Shown: in pieces, positions 1,358 to 46,202 of the stretch
How positions within the stretch are numbered: the first letter of the stretch is position 1
Layout of the letters: each line of letters starts with the position of its first letter
Source: Prevotella sp.
GTDB lineage: Bacteria; Bacteroidota; Bacteroidia; Bacteroidales; Bacteroidaceae
Length of the DNA stretch: 46,202 nucleotides
Direction: 5' to 3'
Assembly (NCBI GenBank): GCA_017428925.1
Contig: JAFRPY010000027.1
Span: forward strand, 1 to 46,202
Program-made: the position numbers and the translations under genes
Notes under the pieces: model-generated
The model's database searches: none
The model's input: only the letters and a program-made list of their open reading frames with translations
Told to the model about the DNA's origin: nothing

Positions 1358-1396
1358 TAAAAAATTACCAATAGCACAACGCGTTTTCTGGACAAA

Positions 1397-1506
1397 AAAT
1401 AAGGTTTTTACAGGTAAAAAATAAGGATTTCACAGGCTAAAAATAAGGAATTCGAGTCGAAACAAAGGAGATTTCATCCTCAAAAGATAAGGTTTTGACG
1501 TCCAAC
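1397..1506. repeat. 22-bp-period array, motif AAATAAGG
   Basis: AAATAAGG starts at 1397, 1419 and 1441, exactly 22 bp apart, and AGATAAGG starts at 1485, which is two periods later. The unit between (1463-1484) has a degenerate motif but keeps the AAA end of the unit in register. Units share the form AAATAAGG-nTTT-ACAGG-AAA. The array is followed 20 bp later by a perfect 15-bp hairpin (1526-1562). It is one of four arrays of the same period in this window (see 20746, 37319, 46052). Confidence 0.8.
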
Positions 1507-1562: not shown

Positions 1563-1984
1563 CAACGGCCCGGGAATCCCAAGTTCCAGCCGCAACATCA
1601 ACCTTTCAGCCATTGTTTCCGCAGTACAGGTTGTTCAAACATCATCTTTTTCATGTTCATCTTGTTATTTTTTTTCATGGTTTATCTGGTCATTTTGTCA
1701 TCTGGTCGTTTGGTGGTTTAGCTTCCCAAACGACTAAACAACTAATTTCCTAAACGACTAACTTCTGCAAAGATAATATGGAACCGACTAATGAGTTTGG
1801 ACGAAGGAGGGGGAATCCTCTAAACGAATAACTATTATAGTCATATCATTATTAACATCATAATAATGACTTTTAAATCCAGCAGGTAACACACTACTAT
1901 ATTTTTATAATATTTGCTTTAATTACGCACGAAACGATGCCATTTTCATCAAATTGCATTAAGAAAGAAAAAAAAATTTCTTCC
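1563..1984. other. Gene-free, AT-rich, short-repeat region
   Basis: I see no credible gene here. AAACGACTAA or close variants occur at 1728, 1752 and 1782, with the inverse GGTCGTTTGG at 1704-1713 forming a near-perfect hairpin with CCAAACGAC (1726-1734). ATCTGGTC occurs twice (1684, 1700). Spacing of these copies is irregular, unlike the 22-bp arrays. The rest, up to the satD promoter, is A/T-rich. Confidence 0.5.
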
Positions 1985-3695: not shown

Positions 3696-4736
3696 TTACA
3701 ACTTCCAATCTCCCATCACATTCTGAAGGGTGATGGACTGGGCTTCTTTCTTGGTGAGCTGTCGGGCCCATGTTACGCGACTTTGGGGATTGGCACCGGG
3801 ACCGGTGCTGCCATACTCGGCATAGCGGGCGGTTTTCTCGTTCTCTGGATTACGCCAGTTTTCCCATCCCTCGGGAACGATGTGGCTGCCCATCTCGGTA
3901 TTTATAAACAGGGTGTAGGCGTATGGTCGCCAGGGACGGCCAAGATAGACTTTGTTGATGCCTTCGTCGGCGATGAGACGGCAACCGTTGAAAACATAAC
4001 CATATTTGACGTTCTGGGGCGTGGAGGCAGCGGTGATGTAGGAATTGGCCTTGCTACGGATGGTGCACTGCTCGAACCATGCAGTGCTGGGGCCGAAGAT
4101 GAAATCGGTGGTTCCCTCGATGTAGCAGTGGTCGAAATAACAGCGGGTGCCGCCCATGCCCGTATAGATGGTGTCCTGATGACCGAGGAAGCGGACGTTG
4201 ATGAACTTCAGGCGGTCGCCCTCGGTATGAAGTGCCACGGCCTGTCCCAATCGGGCTGAGTTATTCTCGATGGTGATGTTCTTGAAAGTGATGTCCTGGC
4301 CCTCAACCTTCACGGTATAGGTGCGGAAGGTTCCCATGGGCTGGCAGCCCCCCTCGGTCCCCCCTTGGGGGGAAGATGTGTCGTATCCTATCTTTGGGAT
4401 GCGGATGTTGGCATGGTCGTCGTAGGTGATGACGGTCTGCTGGGCATCCTCGCCGCAAATCTCGATGTTGGTGAGCCATGAGGGTATCACCACTTTTTCC
4501 TTATAGACTCCCTTTTTCACGAATATCACCTTGTGGTATTCCATGAATGCGCGGCATACTTCAACGGCCTCGTTGACGGTGCGGAACTGGCCTGTGCCAT
4601 CGCGTGCCACGAAGAGGGTGTCGGGATTGTCGTAGCTCGAAGCGGCTTTCGCTTCGACAAGTGATAAGTGATAAGTGATGAGCGATAAGATTATCACTAT
4701 CATTTGCCTGATGTGGAGCGTCATTTTAGGTTTCAT
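3696..4736 (-). CDS. Secreted pectinesterase (CE8)
   Basis: 346 residues with an N-terminal signal segment (IVIILSLITYHLSLVEAKA). It demethylates the galacturonate backbone of pectin. The right-handed beta-helix motifs of the family are present in order: GQAVALH (164-170), GHQDTIY with Asp188, TTDFIFG with Asp211, and LGRPW with Arg266 and Trp268. These are the two catalytic Asp residues and the substrate Arg/Trp. Residues 121-133 (SSPQGGTEGGCQP) are encoded by a GC-rich palindromic repeat that also occurs elsewhere in the window, so they are probably an in-frame insertion in a surface turn. The signal peptide is partly encoded by a repeated GTGATAA sequence (4659-4682). It is a lone gene; no other pectin gene is adjacent. 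Confidence 0.93.
   Translation of the reverse strand: MKPKMTLHIRQMIVIILSLITYHLSLVEAKAASSYDNPDTLFVARDGTGQFRTVNEAVEVCRAFMEYHKVIFVKKGVYKEKVVIPSWLTNIEICGEDAQQTVITYDDHANIRIPKIGYDTSSPQGGTEGGCQPMGTFRTYTVKVEGQDITFKNITIENNSARLGQAVALHTEGDRLKFINVRFLGHQDTIYTGMGGTRCYFDHCYIEGTTDFIFGPSTAWFEQCTIRSKANSYITAASTPQNVKYGYVFNGCRLIADEGINKVYLGRPWRPYAYTLFINTEMGSHIVPEGWENWRNPENEKTARYAEYGSTGPGANPQSRVTWARQLTKKEAQSITLQNVMGDWKL
4346..4376. repeat. GC-rich palindromic element inside the pectinesterase gene
   Basis: A C-rich run, a TCGGT or TCATT-type spacer, then a CCCCCC/GGGGGG hairpin (4359-4372). The copy at 25245-25275 in the dehydrogenase gene has the same layout. On the coding strand it gives SPQGGTEGG here and SPLGGNEGG there, so both are read in the same frame. 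Confidence 0.75.
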
Positions 4737-13147: not shown

Positions 13148-13203
13148 GATAAAATGGAACACAGAGATACACCTCCTAACTCCTAATTCCTAACTCCAAA
13201 CTC

Positions 13204-13684: not shown

Positions 13685-14383
13685 ATGACGGTATCCATTT
13701 GGTCGCGGCTGACCGACCTTATTGCGCCCCGCGCCTGTGCAGCTTGCGAGCGACGGCTGGCCATTGGTGAGGAACTGCTGTGTGCCCGTTGCAACCTCCA
13801 CCTGCCACGCACCCACTTTGCTTCATCGCCTACCGACAACCCGCTGGCCCGACGCTTTTGGGGGTTGATGCCTGTAGAGCGTGCCGCCGCGTTGTTCTAT
13901 TACGAGCCCAATTCCGCTGCCTCGCTTGTCATCAAGTCCATGAAATACCACTATCATCCCGAATATGGTGAAATGCTGGGCAAGCTTGCCGCCAAAGAGT
14001 TCTTTCTTCACGGTTTCTTCGAGGGTATCGACGCCATCGTTCCCATTCCATTGGCCCGCCAACGCCAGCACCAGCGCGGCTACAACCAAAGCTATGAGAT
14101 AGCCAAAGGAATCCATAAAGTAACAGGAATCCCCATTGTCGACAATGCCGTCAGGCGAACCTCCTTCAACAAAAGTCAGGCACGATCAACACATCTGGAA
14201 CGCGAAGCTAACGTTGAAAATGCTTTCGAACTAATCTCAGCCGACGTCATCCGCAACCGCAACATCCTTCTCGTCGACGACATCGTCACCACTGGCGCCA
14301 CCATGCGTACCTGCCTCCAGCAACTGCAAAAGGCTCAACCAAAAAATCTCAGCATCCTTTGCCTTGGGTACACAAAGGAGTGA
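13685..14383 (+). CDS. ComF-family phosphoribosyltransferase-like protein
   Basis: 232 residues from ATG 13685; a TTG at 13661 would overlap recX and is not needed. N-terminal zinc-finger Cys pairs (CAACERRL and CARC) are followed by a PRTase fold with VPIPLARQRQHQRGYNQS and the PRPP loop ILLVDDIVTTGATMRTC. ComF proteins are linked to DNA uptake in naturally competent bacteria; here that role is inference. The stop codon falls in a short repeat AGTGATAAGTGATAAGG, directly followed by a GC-rich palindromic element. Confidence 0.9.
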   Translation: MTVSIWSRLTDLIAPRACAACERRLAIGEELLCARCNLHLPRTHFASSPTDNPLARRFWGLMPVERAAALFYYEPNSAASLVIKSMKYHYHPEYGEMLGKLAAKEFFLHGFFEGIDAIVPIPLARQRQHQRGYNQSYEIAKGIHKVTGIPIVDNAVRRTSFNKSQARSTHLEREANVENAFELISADVIRNRNILLVDDIVTTGATMRTCLQQLQKAQPKNLSILCLGYTKE

Positions 14384-14402
14384 TAAGTGATAAGGATAAA
14401 TT

Positions 14403-20745: not shown

Positions 20746-20833
20746 AAAACTGCTCCTTAAGTGCAGTAAAACTGCTCATCAAGAGCGGAAAAACTGCAAA
20801 TAAGGAGCAGAAAAACTGCACCTGATCAGCAGT
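20746..20833. repeat. 22-bp-period array, motif AAAACTGC
   Basis: AAAACTGC starts at 20746, 20768, 20790 and 20812, each exactly 22 bp apart. Each unit also carries a GCAG or GCGG half near its end, so each reads AAAACTGC-N9/10-GCAG. The last unit forms a perfect hairpin AAAAACTGC/GCAGTTTTT (20811-20837) that looks like an intrinsic terminator after GH43. The rest of the 320-bp gap has no gene. Confidence 0.85.
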
Positions 20834-31348: not shown

Positions 31349-31840
31349 GGACAAAAATCTACATAAATCTTACACAAAATCTCTTTTTGTCACATACTCG
31401 TATGAACCCTTGATATAGTCGTAAAGGTATCTCTCTGAAATCAAATTTTTCGGATGACCGAAATTGACAAGAACGCCAGCGAAAGAGTCTGTGATGCGCA
31501 AATAGTTGAACAACAGAGCCCTATGCTCATTGCTAAGTTCTAAGACGGCCTTTGTTTCTACTATCAAATCCCCATAGCACACAAAATCTGCAATATATTT
31601 TTTCTTCAGCTCTTGACCATGGAAATACATCTTCAAGACTTTCTCACGTTCCCAGGGGATTCCTTTCTCTGAACACACGATTGAAAAGCATTCCTGATAG
31701 ATGGGTTCGGCCAACCCATAACCAAGCTCATTGTAAACGTCCATTGCCGCACCAATCACCTGACACATTTTACCAAGATATTCCTTCCTTTTCTCCTCCA
31801 ACATAAGAGATTTGTGTTAGATTTCTGTAGATTTTTGTCC
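31349..31840. mobile_element. GxxExxY unit with terminal inverted repeats
   Basis: The left end (31349-31384) begins GGACAAAAATCTACATAAAT and the right end (31806-31840) is its inverse, ending CTGTAGATTTTTGTCC; I count 33 of 36 aligned positions identical with one gap. The GxxExxY gene fills the whole interval: its last codons and stop lie in the left repeat and its ATG touches the right repeat. TTAATAATGTCT (31328-31339) and TTAATAATATCT (31841-31852) could be a degenerate target duplication, although the left copy is 9 bp outside the end. The unit splits an operon between kinase and isomerase genes. A third copy of the end sequence stands alone at 45866-45896. Confidence 0.7.
31370..31804 (-). 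CDS. GxxExxY protein, PD-(D/E)XK nuclease-like
   Basis: 144 residues. The naming motif is GLAEPIY (Gly30, Glu33, Tyr36), followed by a nuclease-like core with Asp73 in YIADFV and Glu83-Thr-Lys85 in LIVETKA, the PD-(D/E)XK signature. A helical C-terminus (RALLFNYLRITDS, then VNFGHPKNLISER) completes the family pattern. The function of GxxExxY proteins is not known; they are often present in many copies per genome. Here the gene is enclosed by terminal inverted repeats and lies in the same direction as the sugar operon, so it may be transcribed with it. It might be the mobility enzyme of its own small element. Confidence 0.85.
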   Translation of the reverse strand: MLEEKRKEYLGKMCQVIGAAMDVYNELGYGLAEPIYQECFSIVCSEKGIPWEREKVLKMYFHGQELKKKYIADFVCYGDLIVETKAVLELSNEHRALLFNYLRITDSFAGVLVNFGHPKNLISERYLYDYIKGSYEYVTKRDFV

Positions 31841-37318: not shown

Positions 37319-37494
37319 AAATCAGCGTTTTATCTGCCAAATATCAGCGTTTGAATTGCCAAAGTCCATTATTCGAGTTGTAATTTAATTGAAATTGGTC
37401 GGCAATTTAATTGAAATTGGTCGGCAATTTAATTGAAATTACTCTGCAATTTAATTGAAATTACAACTCGGATGATAGATTTTGGCAAGTCGGG
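37319..37494. repeat. 22-bp-period array, motif TTAATTGAAATT with TGCCAA/GCAAT
   Basis: Four units begin TTAATTGAAATT at 37385, 37407, 37429 and 37451, exactly 22 bp apart; the first two are identical over the full unit. Before them ATCAGCGTTT (37321, 37343) and TGCCAA (37335, 37357) also repeat with a 22-bp step, so the array seems to have about eight units, some degenerate. CGAGTTGTAATTT (37374-37386) and AAATTACAACTCG (37458-37470) form inverted ends of the core. It lies between convergent genes, 40 bp past the GH3 terminator, and no gene is present. Confidence 0.85.
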
Positions 37495-43786: not shown

Positions 43787-45733
43787 TTATACGAAATTCA
43801 TTCCCAAACGTTTTGCCAAAGTGTTGCGTATTTCACGCAAATCCATCAATTCGGGCATCAGCCGCAATTGTTCTTCTGCCGGACTTTGCTTCATTCTTGT
43901 TTCCAATTCTCGGAGTTTGCCTTCAATATAGTTCATCCGGAAATCGAGAATCAGGTGAGTCACCTGTTCGCGGAGACCGTCCTCGCTGAGTTCTTTCTGC
44001 AGGCTCTTGCTCAGCTGGACACTGTCGGACGACAAATCGCCAGCCACTTTGCTCATCTCCACATCAGGATGATTGAGGAAATAGGTTTCCGACTTGAATC
44101 CTTTTTCTGACGAATGGGCCACTGCCTCGTCCAAGATACGGTTGTAGAGCGGTATGCTGAACGAAAGACCATCCTGGCCTAAGTCGTAGGCAATATACTG
44201 CGCCACGTTCAAATTGATGGTATCTCCGTCCTCGGTTTCCAAATTCCGATAGATAATCACTTCACCATGACGAATAATCATCTGGGCAAGCATGGTCTCA
44301 ACGGTGGAAGAAGCCGCGCCCGAATCGTTCTGAAGATTTATAGGATGACTGCTTTGCTGCTTTCCCGCTGATTGCTGCCCGACATTAGCAGACTGAGGCT
44401 GTCTTTGCCTGATCATTTTATTCATCTGCCCAATGATGGTATTCTCGTTGATTCCCAGTTGGAAAGCACAATCCGTGATATAAGTAGCACGCACAATCTG
44501 GTCGGGAATAACGCTCAGCGAGGCGATCACAGAGTTGATTCCCTCAGAGCGCTTGACGGGGTCGGTGACGCCTCTCAGCAGATAGTCAATCTTGAACTTG
44601 ATGCAATCGGTCTGATGGGTTTCTATATATTGCCGGAAATCGTTGGCCGTGTTCTTGCGCGAAAAACTGTCGGGGTCTTCACCTTCTGGCAGGAAGAGCA
44701 TTTTCAGGTTGATGCCTTCGGCGAGCATCATGTCGATGCGCTCCATGGCTGCATGCTTGCCTGCCTGGTCGTTATCATAGATGAGCGTGATGTTGTTGGT
44801 GAAACGGCGCAACGTACGTGTCTGATGAACGCTGAAGGCCGTGCCCGAGCCTGCCACCACATTCTCTATGCCGCACTGGTGCATGGCGATGACGTCTGTC
44901 TGACCTTCCACGATAAACACCCTGTCATCCCTGACCATAGCTTGCTTGGCCAGGTGAATGCCATAAAGCTCGCGTTCCTTCTGATAGATAACCGATGCTG
45001 GAGAATTGACATATTTCTGCTGCACCCCTTTGGTGGCCTGGTCGAGTTTACGGGCATTGAACCCGACAACCTTTCCGCTCAGACTGAACCACGGAAAAAC
45101 CACACGACCGGCAAAACGGTCGATGAGCCGTCCGTCACGTTCGCTCTTATAGCACAGTCCCACGCCTATGCCCGTATCTGGATTCTGAAGCAGATATTTT
45201 TCTTTATAGCCTTCCTTCAGCAACAGGGCGGGCAACGCATCGGCCTGCGGAAGGTCGTAGCCTAAACGGAACTTGCGAATGATGTCGTCGCGGAAACCGC
45301 GGCTGCGAAAATACTGCATTCCGATGGCCATGCCGTCGACATTGTTGTGAAGCGTGTCCTCGAAATACTTTGCCGCACGCTCGTTGACAATGAACATCGA
45401 CTCACGGTCGTTCTCGGCTTCACGCTCCTGGCTCGTCAGTTCGCGTTCCTGAATCTCAATATGGTATTTGTTGGCCAACCATCGCAACGCCTCGGGATAG
45501 GTCATCTGCTGGTGTTCCATGATGAAGTTTACGGAATTACCGCCCTTTCCGCAACCAAAGCAACGGCAGGTGTTGCGAGAGGGATTGACGATAAACGACG
45601 GTGTTTTCTCGTTATGGAAAGGGCACAGACCTTTATAGTTTGTTCCGCTCCTACGAAGTGAAACAAACTCCGACACCACCTCCACGATGTTGGCGGCGTC
45701 CATAATCTTGTCTATCGTCGCCCTGTCAATCAT
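43787..45733 (-). CDS. dnaG: DNA primase DnaG
   Basis: 648 residues. The N-terminal zinc domain has Cys37-x2-His40 and Cys58-x2-Cys61 (LCPFHNEKTPSF, CRCFGCGKGG). The RNA polymerase core includes YHIEIQERELTSQE linkers, KYVNSPASVIYQKERELYG, and the TOPRIM motif VFIVEGQTDVIAMHQ with the following YDNDQAGKHAAMERID acidic cluster. The C-terminal part (about 430-648) binds DnaB helicase and is Gln-rich at its start. It makes primers for replication. First gene of the dnaG-queD-queE-cls run. Confidence 0.97.
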   Translation of the reverse strand: MIDRATIDKIMDAANIVEVVSEFVSLRRSGTNYKGLCPFHNEKTPSFIVNPSRNTCRCFGCGKGGNSVNFIMEHQQMTYPEALRWLANKYHIEIQERELTSQEREAENDRESMFIVNERAAKYFEDTLHNNVDGMAIGMQYFRSRGFRDDIIRKFRLGYDLPQADALPALLLKEGYKEKYLLQNPDTGIGVGLCYKSERDGRLIDRFAGRVVFPWFSLSGKVVGFNARKLDQATKGVQQKYVNSPASVIYQKERELYGIHLAKQAMVRDDRVFIVEGQTDVIAMHQCGIENVVAGSGTAFSVHQTRTLRRFTNNITLIYDNDQAGKHAAMERIDMMLAEGINLKMLFLPEGEDPDSFSRKNTANDFRQYIETHQTDCIKFKIDYLLRGVTDPVKRSEGINSVIASLSVIPDQIVRATYITDCAFQLGINENTIIGQMNKMIRQRQPQSANVGQQSAGKQQSSHPINLQNDSGAASSTVETMLAQMIIRHGEVIIYRNLETEDGDTINLNVAQYIAYDLGQDGLSFSIPLYNRILDEAVAHSSEKGFKSETYFLNHPDVEMSKVAGDLSSDSVQLSKSLQKELSEDGLREQVTHLILDFRMNYIEGKLRELETRMKQSPAEEQLRLMPELMDLREIRNTLAKRLGMNFV

Positions 45734-45865: not shown

Positions 45866-45896
45866 GGACAAAAATCTGCAAAAATCTAACACAAAT
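45866..45896. repeat. Solitary copy of the GxxExxY end repeat
   Basis: GGACAAAAATCTGCAAAAAT followed by CTAACACAAAT matches the inverse of the right end of the 31349-31840 unit at about 29 of 31 positions. No GxxExxY gene follows; the next 150 bp up to the 22-bp array have no convincing gene, so it may be what remains of a lost copy or a non-autonomous end. Confidence 0.75.
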
Positions 45897-46051
45897 TGTT
45901 GGATGGAACTCCCCTGAAAAACTTTCATAAATCCTAACATTTTCGTCGCTGCAATCCGCATAAAAATAGCGAAAAAGACAGGTGATTTTGGCGGATTCCA
46001 TGTCTTTGAAATGCAAAAAACAGGCATCCGATGAGCAAATCATCAGCATTT

Positions 46052-46202
46052 AGACTTTAATTCCAGTTCATTTAAAGTCTAAATGACATGGAATTAAAGT
46101 CTGGATAAAGAGCAAACAGACTTCAACTGACGGTCAGTTGAAGTCCAAAAGCCTATGATTTAAAGTTCGGGGAATGAAAAAGGAAAGTCTAAAAAAACAA
46201 AA
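46052..46202. repeat. 22-bp-period array, motif AAAGTCT in both orientations
   Basis: The 7-bp motif starts at 46052 (inverted), 46074, 46096, 46118 (inverted), 46140, 46162 and 46184: seven positions with exactly 22-bp steps, four of them perfect AAAGTCT or its inverse except single changes in the others. AGACTTTAATTCC (46052-46064) and GGAATTAAAGTCT (46090-46102) are perfect inverses, as are GACTTCAACTGAC (46119-46131) and GTCAGTTGAAGTC (46133-46145). The array continues to the window edge and may be longer. Confidence 0.9.

Follow-up and report, generated by a model that had tools for sequence, protein, structure and literature searches.

A dispersed intergenic element with a constant 22-bp step and a changing motif, probably of Prevotella and its relatives

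At the extreme end of a contig from a Prevotella draft genome (3.56 Mb in 122 contigs), the short motif AAAGTCT and its inverse AGACTTT recur seven times at an exact 22-bp step, which raises the question of whether such an array stands alone or represents a class of elements set by spacing and not by letters. The window analysed here is the entire contig, 46,202 nucleotides long. Laid out in rows of 22 bases, it shows sites starting at 46052 (AGACTTT), 46074 (AAAGTCT), 46096 (AAAGTCT), 46118 (AGACTTC), 46140 (GAAGTCC), 46162 (AAAGTTC) and 46184 (AAAGTCT); four of the seven are exact, the other three carry one, two and two changes, and the step has zero slip. Lag-22 self-matching reaches z 4.7 in a 66-bp window and 5.3 in one of 110 bp, and the seven-site array described in the original prediction is therefore real. 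Its two inverted units had also been described as perfect 13-bp palindromes, which is correct for the pair at 46119-46145 and not for that at 46052-46102, which is only 86% identical. The features of the window are collected in Table 1.

Table 1. Location of the features discussed (positions refer to the window; L numbers are loci elsewhere)
Feature	Location	Strand	Evidence
Second array, step 22, different motif AAAAATAAGG	1393..1500	.	Tandem Repeats Finder, lag score
Right-end-like sequence of the dispersed element, GCAAAGATAAT...CCGACTAATGAGTTTGGACG	1775..1805	+	By eye against copies L024, L027
Third array, step 22, motif AAAACTGC	20746..20833	.	Related arrays in other gaps of the genome, e.g. 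L047, L048, L053
Fourth array region, step 22, two adjacent sets with differing motifs	37321..37462	.	Tandem Repeats Finder, lag score
dnaG, DNA primase, left neighbour of the truncated element	43787..45733	-	Pfam
Truncated element copy: left end TAACATTTTCG, leader, array, cut linker, no tail	45935..46202	+	BLAST, alignment
AAAGTCT/AGACTTT-like array, seven sites, exact 22-bp step	46052..46190	.	22-base row layout, lag score
Imperfect inverted pair of array sites, 86%	46052..46102	.	BLAST
Perfect 13-bp inverted repeat with one-base centre, from two oppositely oriented array sites	46119..46145	.	Sequence and BLAST inverted match
Reichenbachiella agariperforans array loci	L133, L139, L161, L168, L179, L185, L195		

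Three further gaps of the window had been proposed to share the step, and period 22 was found in all of them, at 1393-1453, at 20746-20819 and, in two stretches, at 37321-37363 and 37382-37462. Tandem Repeats Finder reported these three arrays and omitted the one at 46052 even at score 30, so that the expectation that ordinary repeat searches would miss such arrays holds only in part, three of the four having been caught. The second array shares its gap with a sequence resembling the right end of the dispersed element described below. Other repeats occur in the window as well: short tandem heptamers (AAGTGAT, CTCCTAA, AGTGATA) at 4655-4689, 13173-13203 and 14379-14399, and a separate dispersed repeat with core CAAAAATCTNCAAAAATCT at 45869-45887, 31351-31382 and 31808-31838, which has many short matches genome-wide.

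A class of intergenic arrays with an exact 22-bp step and no single motif exists in this genome and in its relatives. Open reading frames of at least 90 codons were masked, gene calls being simple open reading frames, and intergenic regions of 100 bp or longer were each scored for self-match in a 66-bp window, with z above 4.5 taken as a pass. In 427,128 bases of the window's genome, taken from contigs that already had BLAST matches and including one stretch picked for a match, lag 22 passed in 21 of 109 regions, four of them in the window, whereas lags 21, 23, 44 and 11 passed in 0, 2, 18 and 7; when all 109 regions were shuffled ten times with dinucleotides preserved, on average 0.2 of them exceeded the threshold at lag 22, and never more than one. 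A second genome of the genus (G016), sampled in evenly spaced stretches except for the last, which was picked for a match, had lag 22 in 29 of 125 regions (one at lag 21, one at 23, 20 at 44), and a third (G130), sampled from contigs carrying tail matches, had it in 37 of 111 (two at lag 21, none at 23; shuffles 0.0). The autocorrelation attached to the original prediction is thus strongly positive, with 0-0.2 regions in shuffles, and the excess in this and related genomes on which the class depended stands. Smaller samples of the genus were uneven: 8 of 36 regions in G003, 2 of 40 in G004, 1 of 12 in G010 and 0 of 33 in G009. In the last, lags 14 and 21 led instead of 22, as though a different type of repeat were substituting. 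In a set of 58 short loci taken from about 50 additional species of the genus, lag 22 was found in 6 of 52 regions, lag 44 in 6 and lag 21 in 4, no other lag exceeding 3 of 52. Four genomes from other families of the order had no lag-22 array in 33, 24, 23 and 14 regions (94 in all).

The window array is the left part of a repeated intergenic element, apparently undescribed, of gut bacteria, whose host group is probably Prevotella and its relatives; the copy in the window is truncated because the contig stops at 46202. BLAST placed the segment 45937-46202 and its kin at 19 places in the genome (E 1e-17 or better, 70-100% identity), and among 17 other species of the genus returned a single 38-bp match, in one species. 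Copies begin with a left end near (C/T)GACATTT and a leader, followed by about four to seven units at exactly 22 bp, a near-constant linker and a conserved tail of about 130 bp (approximately TTCATTATCAAC to TTTCTTTAC); in the aligned copies of the window's genome a variable spacer and the right end CCGCCCAATGAGTTTGGGCGG come after the tail. The window copy ends before the tail, and a model of the tail has zero matches in the window. Protein coding was rejected, since all six reading frames are interrupted by stops in 14 copies.

Alignment of these 14 copies showed that the lengths of the element are conserved where its letters vary: mean identity is 0.79 in the tail (2 gap columns of 116), 0.76 in the array (0 of 127), 0.58 in the linker (1 of 45) and 0.53 in the leader (2 of 78). 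The sequence between motifs, which had been thought free, is so inside one array but not across copies, as the array columns attest. The definition of the class by spacing instead of shared sequence needs qualifying: a class without a common motif exists in the genome and its relatives, but the window array itself shares sequence with a dispersed element at no fewer than 19 BLAST-related places. Most distinct intergenic AGACTTT copies of the window's genome (30 of 35) fall in arrays. Arrays without a tail carry the genome's own motif, and since 381 kb of this genome contain only four strong tails beside many more arrays, the tail is not required for an array; 400 kb of G016 contain 24 tails at E 1e-5 or better. 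The nearest sampled relatives are only about 72% identical at dnaG over some 1.3 kb, and hence offered no clean orthologous gap for an empty-site comparison.

Could a 22-nt bias in replication slippage and quasi-palindrome correction have produced such arrays without any function to keep them? We regard this as very improbable. Near-identical units do occur (L363, L262, L400-L401), as in fresh tandem duplication, and correction of palindromes can hold arms complementary without selection, but the lags neighbouring 22 are empty, copies that have diverged to 62% identity remain in phase without a gap and preserve the length of the linker to the tail, inverted sites stay in phase, and the other families of the order gave 0 of 94 regions. 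Slippage alone, one of the roles originally suggested, fails to explain in-phase motifs of both orientations and a constant linker length.

The tail allows the element to be followed where its motif has changed. In G016 the arrays have the motif TGCGTCA/TGACGCA and lie inside a similar element (17 copies aligned), and a profile of the tails of the window's genome finds G016 tails adjoining arrays, with a best E of 1.9e-8. An array-free model built from 15 tails of the window's genome and 11 of G016 had matches at E 0.01 in 95 of the 119 sampled genomes of the genus and none in the other 24; the window's genome and 14 or more others of the genus have at least 28 tails each. At E 0.001 the model had matches in 21 of 151 genomes sampled from the family, including 11 genomes of seven other genera.

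The 22-bp step accompanies this tail; the motif does not. Lags 12-44 were scored in 330 bp on either side of the best tail in 26 of the 95 matching genomes, a set that includes the two source genomes of the model. Upstream, the strongest lag was 22 in 17 genomes and 44 in 3, another lag led in 3, and 3 had nothing above z 4; downstream, no lag exceeded z 4 in 22 of the 26, and lag 22 was strongest in none. Similarly, 40 loci of seven genomes had lag 22 upstream in 25 and lag 44 in 4, the upstream sequence of two (L381, L384) being too short to test, and once seven repeats of the 26-genome set were dropped the remaining 33 had lag 22 in 20 and lag 44 in 4. One genome (G041) had lag 22 in 0 of 10 loci. 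Among the 19 loci of the family search, the strongest lag was 22 upstream in 9 and downstream in 3, and 44 upstream in 1; of the 10 loci that belong to other genera, 8 have lag 22 on one side. We are highly confident of the structural claim that these elements form a family in which the 22-bp step is kept and the motif changes.

A dispersed family of this kind might be a non-autonomous mobile one, a reading that we take seriously while judging it unlikely. The array would then hold repeated sites for the enzyme close to one terminus, the tail would form the opposite terminus, and the motif would vary because the mobilising enzyme of each lineage varies. The dispersal of the copies, their graded divergence and the abundance of tails across genomes all agree with this, as does the variation of neighbouring genes from copy to copy, core genes included; the right-hand neighbours include what we take by eye to be tyrosyl-tRNA synthetase and threonine aldolase. 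These core-looking right-hand neighbours also led us to reject integron-like cassettes. The neighbours at L319, L320, L323, L325 and L331 resembled, by eye, toxin-antitoxin or accessory genes (HigA-like, DUF3990-like, DUF4143-like). The mobile reading is weakened by the ends of 10 copies, which had neither a convincing terminal inverted repeat (best identity 0.30-0.46) nor a consistent target duplication (no consistent word, the longest being chance-like, of 5-8 bases in 40-base flanks), by a search with one copy that matched neither plasmids nor phages, and by the failure to find an enzyme gene with the element. Constraint on length, moreover, reaches well past the ends and covers the linker, the leader and the 130-bp tail, and arrays occur without a tail.

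What, then, changes between species, and what is retained besides the step? Judged by eye in printed loci, array motifs differ between species, with exceptions: L303 has GACTTTA like the window, L418 has TAGACT, and L291, L293, L297 and L298 resemble one another. There are several motif families per genome, four in that of the window for example. Sites occur in both orientations, in phase, in the window and in other arrays. Across 35 arrays with differing motifs and with phases set by hand, the best six-pair dyad averaged 4.26, against 3.53 after shuffling of positions (Wilcoxon p 4e-7), and 17 of the 35 reached a dyad p of 0.03 or less individually. In 102 arrays the whole-unit dyad score was 0.553 against 0.433 in the control, exceeding it in 91, and by genome the symmetry held in 13 of 18 (p 0.001); the signal was near zero in most other genera and slightly negative in L365, L366, L367 and L374. 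A search of named genomes, which required step 22 by design and so bears on the spread of the motif and not on the specificity of the step, found AGACTTT arrays at at least 11 loci of Prevotella sp. RGIG5985. The same motif at this step was seen at no fewer than seven loci of Reichenbachiella agariperforans (Table 1), all outside called genes, and at single or few loci of Croceivirga, Carboxylicivirga and Ruminococcus among the matches listed. Eight viral contigs (L351-L358) have three AGACTTT sites at step 22.

Dyad symmetry is what a row of dimer sites needs, and equally what hairpins need. Our preferred reading, to which we give somewhat less than an even chance, is that the array constitutes a lattice of sites for a dimeric DNA-binding protein. 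Sites 22 bp apart would lie about two helix turns from each other and thus on one face of the DNA, and a candidate dimeric protein could assemble side by side along them. The spacing between protein neighbours would fix the 22-bp ruler, while the recognition surface of the protein might drift in each lineage, with the array motifs following it. The tail would act in cis as another component of this complex, one that changes slowly, and the position at gene 3' ends would reflect either tolerance or a function in ending transcription units; the putative protein might either move the element or organise the chromosome. This reading draws on the confinement of the signal to lag 22, on dyad symmetry, on fixed lengths and on the in-phase sites of both orientations, and also on the spread of the tail model (95 of 119 genomes), the tie between step and tail, and the sharing of the genome's motif by arrays without a tail. 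Dyad symmetry and fixed lengths likewise favour the phased, protein-bound operator first suggested for this locus. Against this, the analysis identified no binding protein, three genomes of the genus (G009, G010, G004) are nearly without lag-22 signal, the dyad signal almost vanishes in other genera, a single genome has several motif families, and 22 bp slightly exceeds two turns of B-form DNA.

The two turns would be exact in an A-form helix, and this counts for an RNA element, a reading that we hold to be doubtful. Array and tail would on this view be transcribed as a 3' region or as a small RNA, forming tandem hairpins at 22 nt and a long hairpin in the tail, and transcripts might be ended or protected by them as by REP/BIME sequences. 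In the tail, the two arms of an inverted repeat pair more closely when both come from one species than when they come from different species (23.6 against 19.5 ± 0.82 in 200 permutations, whose maximum was 21.7), a covariation that a plain protein site does not need; the test covered 29 of 45 loci, 16 with shorter matches being excluded, and the effect was carried by ten or so of the 29, the copy of the window's genome ranking 28th. Elements also lie preferentially at gene 3' ends. Across 26 genomes, the left-hand gene is directed towards the element in 17 of 26 cases and the right-hand one in 18 of 25; the counts for the window's genome are 13 of 16 for the right gene and 8 of 18 for the left. 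For all arrays together, a bias against divergent gaps was not significant. The strand evidence conflicts, since G-T and A-C mismatches in hairpins number 50 and 85 in the array and 48 and 26 in the tail and point to opposite strands, and we rejected an assignment of the RNA strand on this basis. Consensus folding of 14 copies gave little covariation (-0.47 kcal/mol), and arm covariation in the units is weak (two genomes), so that unit hairpins were not accepted as proven RNA. A promoter-like box at the right end of the copies in the window's genome was discarded as a general feature (2 of 26 in other species, against 4 of 26 in the control). Rfam had no match in the window at gathering score and only seven sub-threshold ones in 13 loci. 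The folded RNA proposed among the original roles keeps the covarying tail hairpin in its favour and the conflicting strands against it. A conserved strand or replication polarity in G016 was dropped as GC skew was weak.

The lattice, mobile-substrate and RNA readings overlap in part, and the latter two are serious rivals of the first. We propose only tentatively that these arrays form a new category of element, a family-wide lattice on a 22-bp ruler with a slow tail and letters that turn over between species; such turnover would resemble an arms race, or the kind of chase known from centromeres, with a DNA-coating protein on one side and its sites on the other.

In the sampled genomes, arrays lie in between one fifth and one third of the intergenic regions of at least 100 bp, and because the motif changes between species these arrays are poorly visible to sequence searches. 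If the sites are bound, these gut bacteria, a common group, would have a chromosome-wide DNA-protein system that is so far unnamed, and motifs that change while the ruler stays constant would offer a natural experiment on how a protein and its sites co-evolve. Should the arrays instead be mobile or RNA elements, they would still amount to a large unannotated share of noncoding DNA.

In the open full-text literature we found no description of such an element in this group, and one may exist in subscription journals, most of which lay outside this search. The closest known system is BrickBuilt of Porphyromonas gingivalis, which is described as a miniature inverted-repeat transposable element (MITE) with a 23-nt minisatellite, with matches confined to P. 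gingivalis and P. gulae (PMC4596501). Both are dispersed intergenic elements of Bacteroidales with a leader, an imperfect short tandem array and a tail, and they share about 19 copies per genome, predicted stem-loops and the lack of an Rfam match (PMC4596501). The step of BrickBuilt is 23 with one motif, as given there, and its host range is narrow, whereas the step here is 22, with sites in both orientations and a changing motif, and the tail family extends to most of the genus and to other genera. The element is MITE-like in being short (443-601 bp in 10 copies), noncoding, multicopy and intergenic; the IS5-type ends of BrickBuilt, GAGACCWTTGCA, had no match in 380,926 + 400,000 + 400,000 bases (1.18 Mb). 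In G130 (L420-L439) a compact inverted element, GGAACTTTCGACA...TGTCGAAAGTTCC, surrounds a 22-bp array and recurs in many gaps; it has terminal inverted repeats, unlike the element of the window.

The TAACTGA heptamers of Beggiatoaceae and some Bacteroidetes are tandem repeats of one motif located mostly just before start codons (PMC4679880); they resemble the present arrays in forming many intergenic direct-repeat sets per genome, and they are without the 22-bp step. CRISPR arrays combine identical repeats, unique spacers and cas genes; in the present arrays the repeated motif spans about 7-17 bp and the remainder is loosely shared. The REP/BIME repeats associated with RAYT transposases consist of species-specific palindromic units in both orientations with a preference for gene 3' ends. 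The element is like them in these respects, its palindromic signal being weak or absent in other genera, and differs in its fixed 22-bp step and long conserved tail. The window's genome has two RAYT-like Y1_Tnp genes (L378, L379), around which no lag-22 match exceeded 4.5 and one region had z 3.8 at lags 21 and 22; a RAYT link was rejected, as these genes are flanked by another repeat and not by above-threshold arrays. The sequence AGAACCGTCCCCGTGATT, repeated around the Y1_Tnp gene in L378, is likely a separate REP-like family. Finally, arrays of 22-bp iterons or transposase sites are known from plasmid R6K, phage Mu and Tn7, where several short sites likewise stand in a row about two helix turns apart; those belong to one origin or to the ends of an element and come with a protein gene, whereas the arrays described here, for which no linked gene was found, are present in tens of copies per genome.
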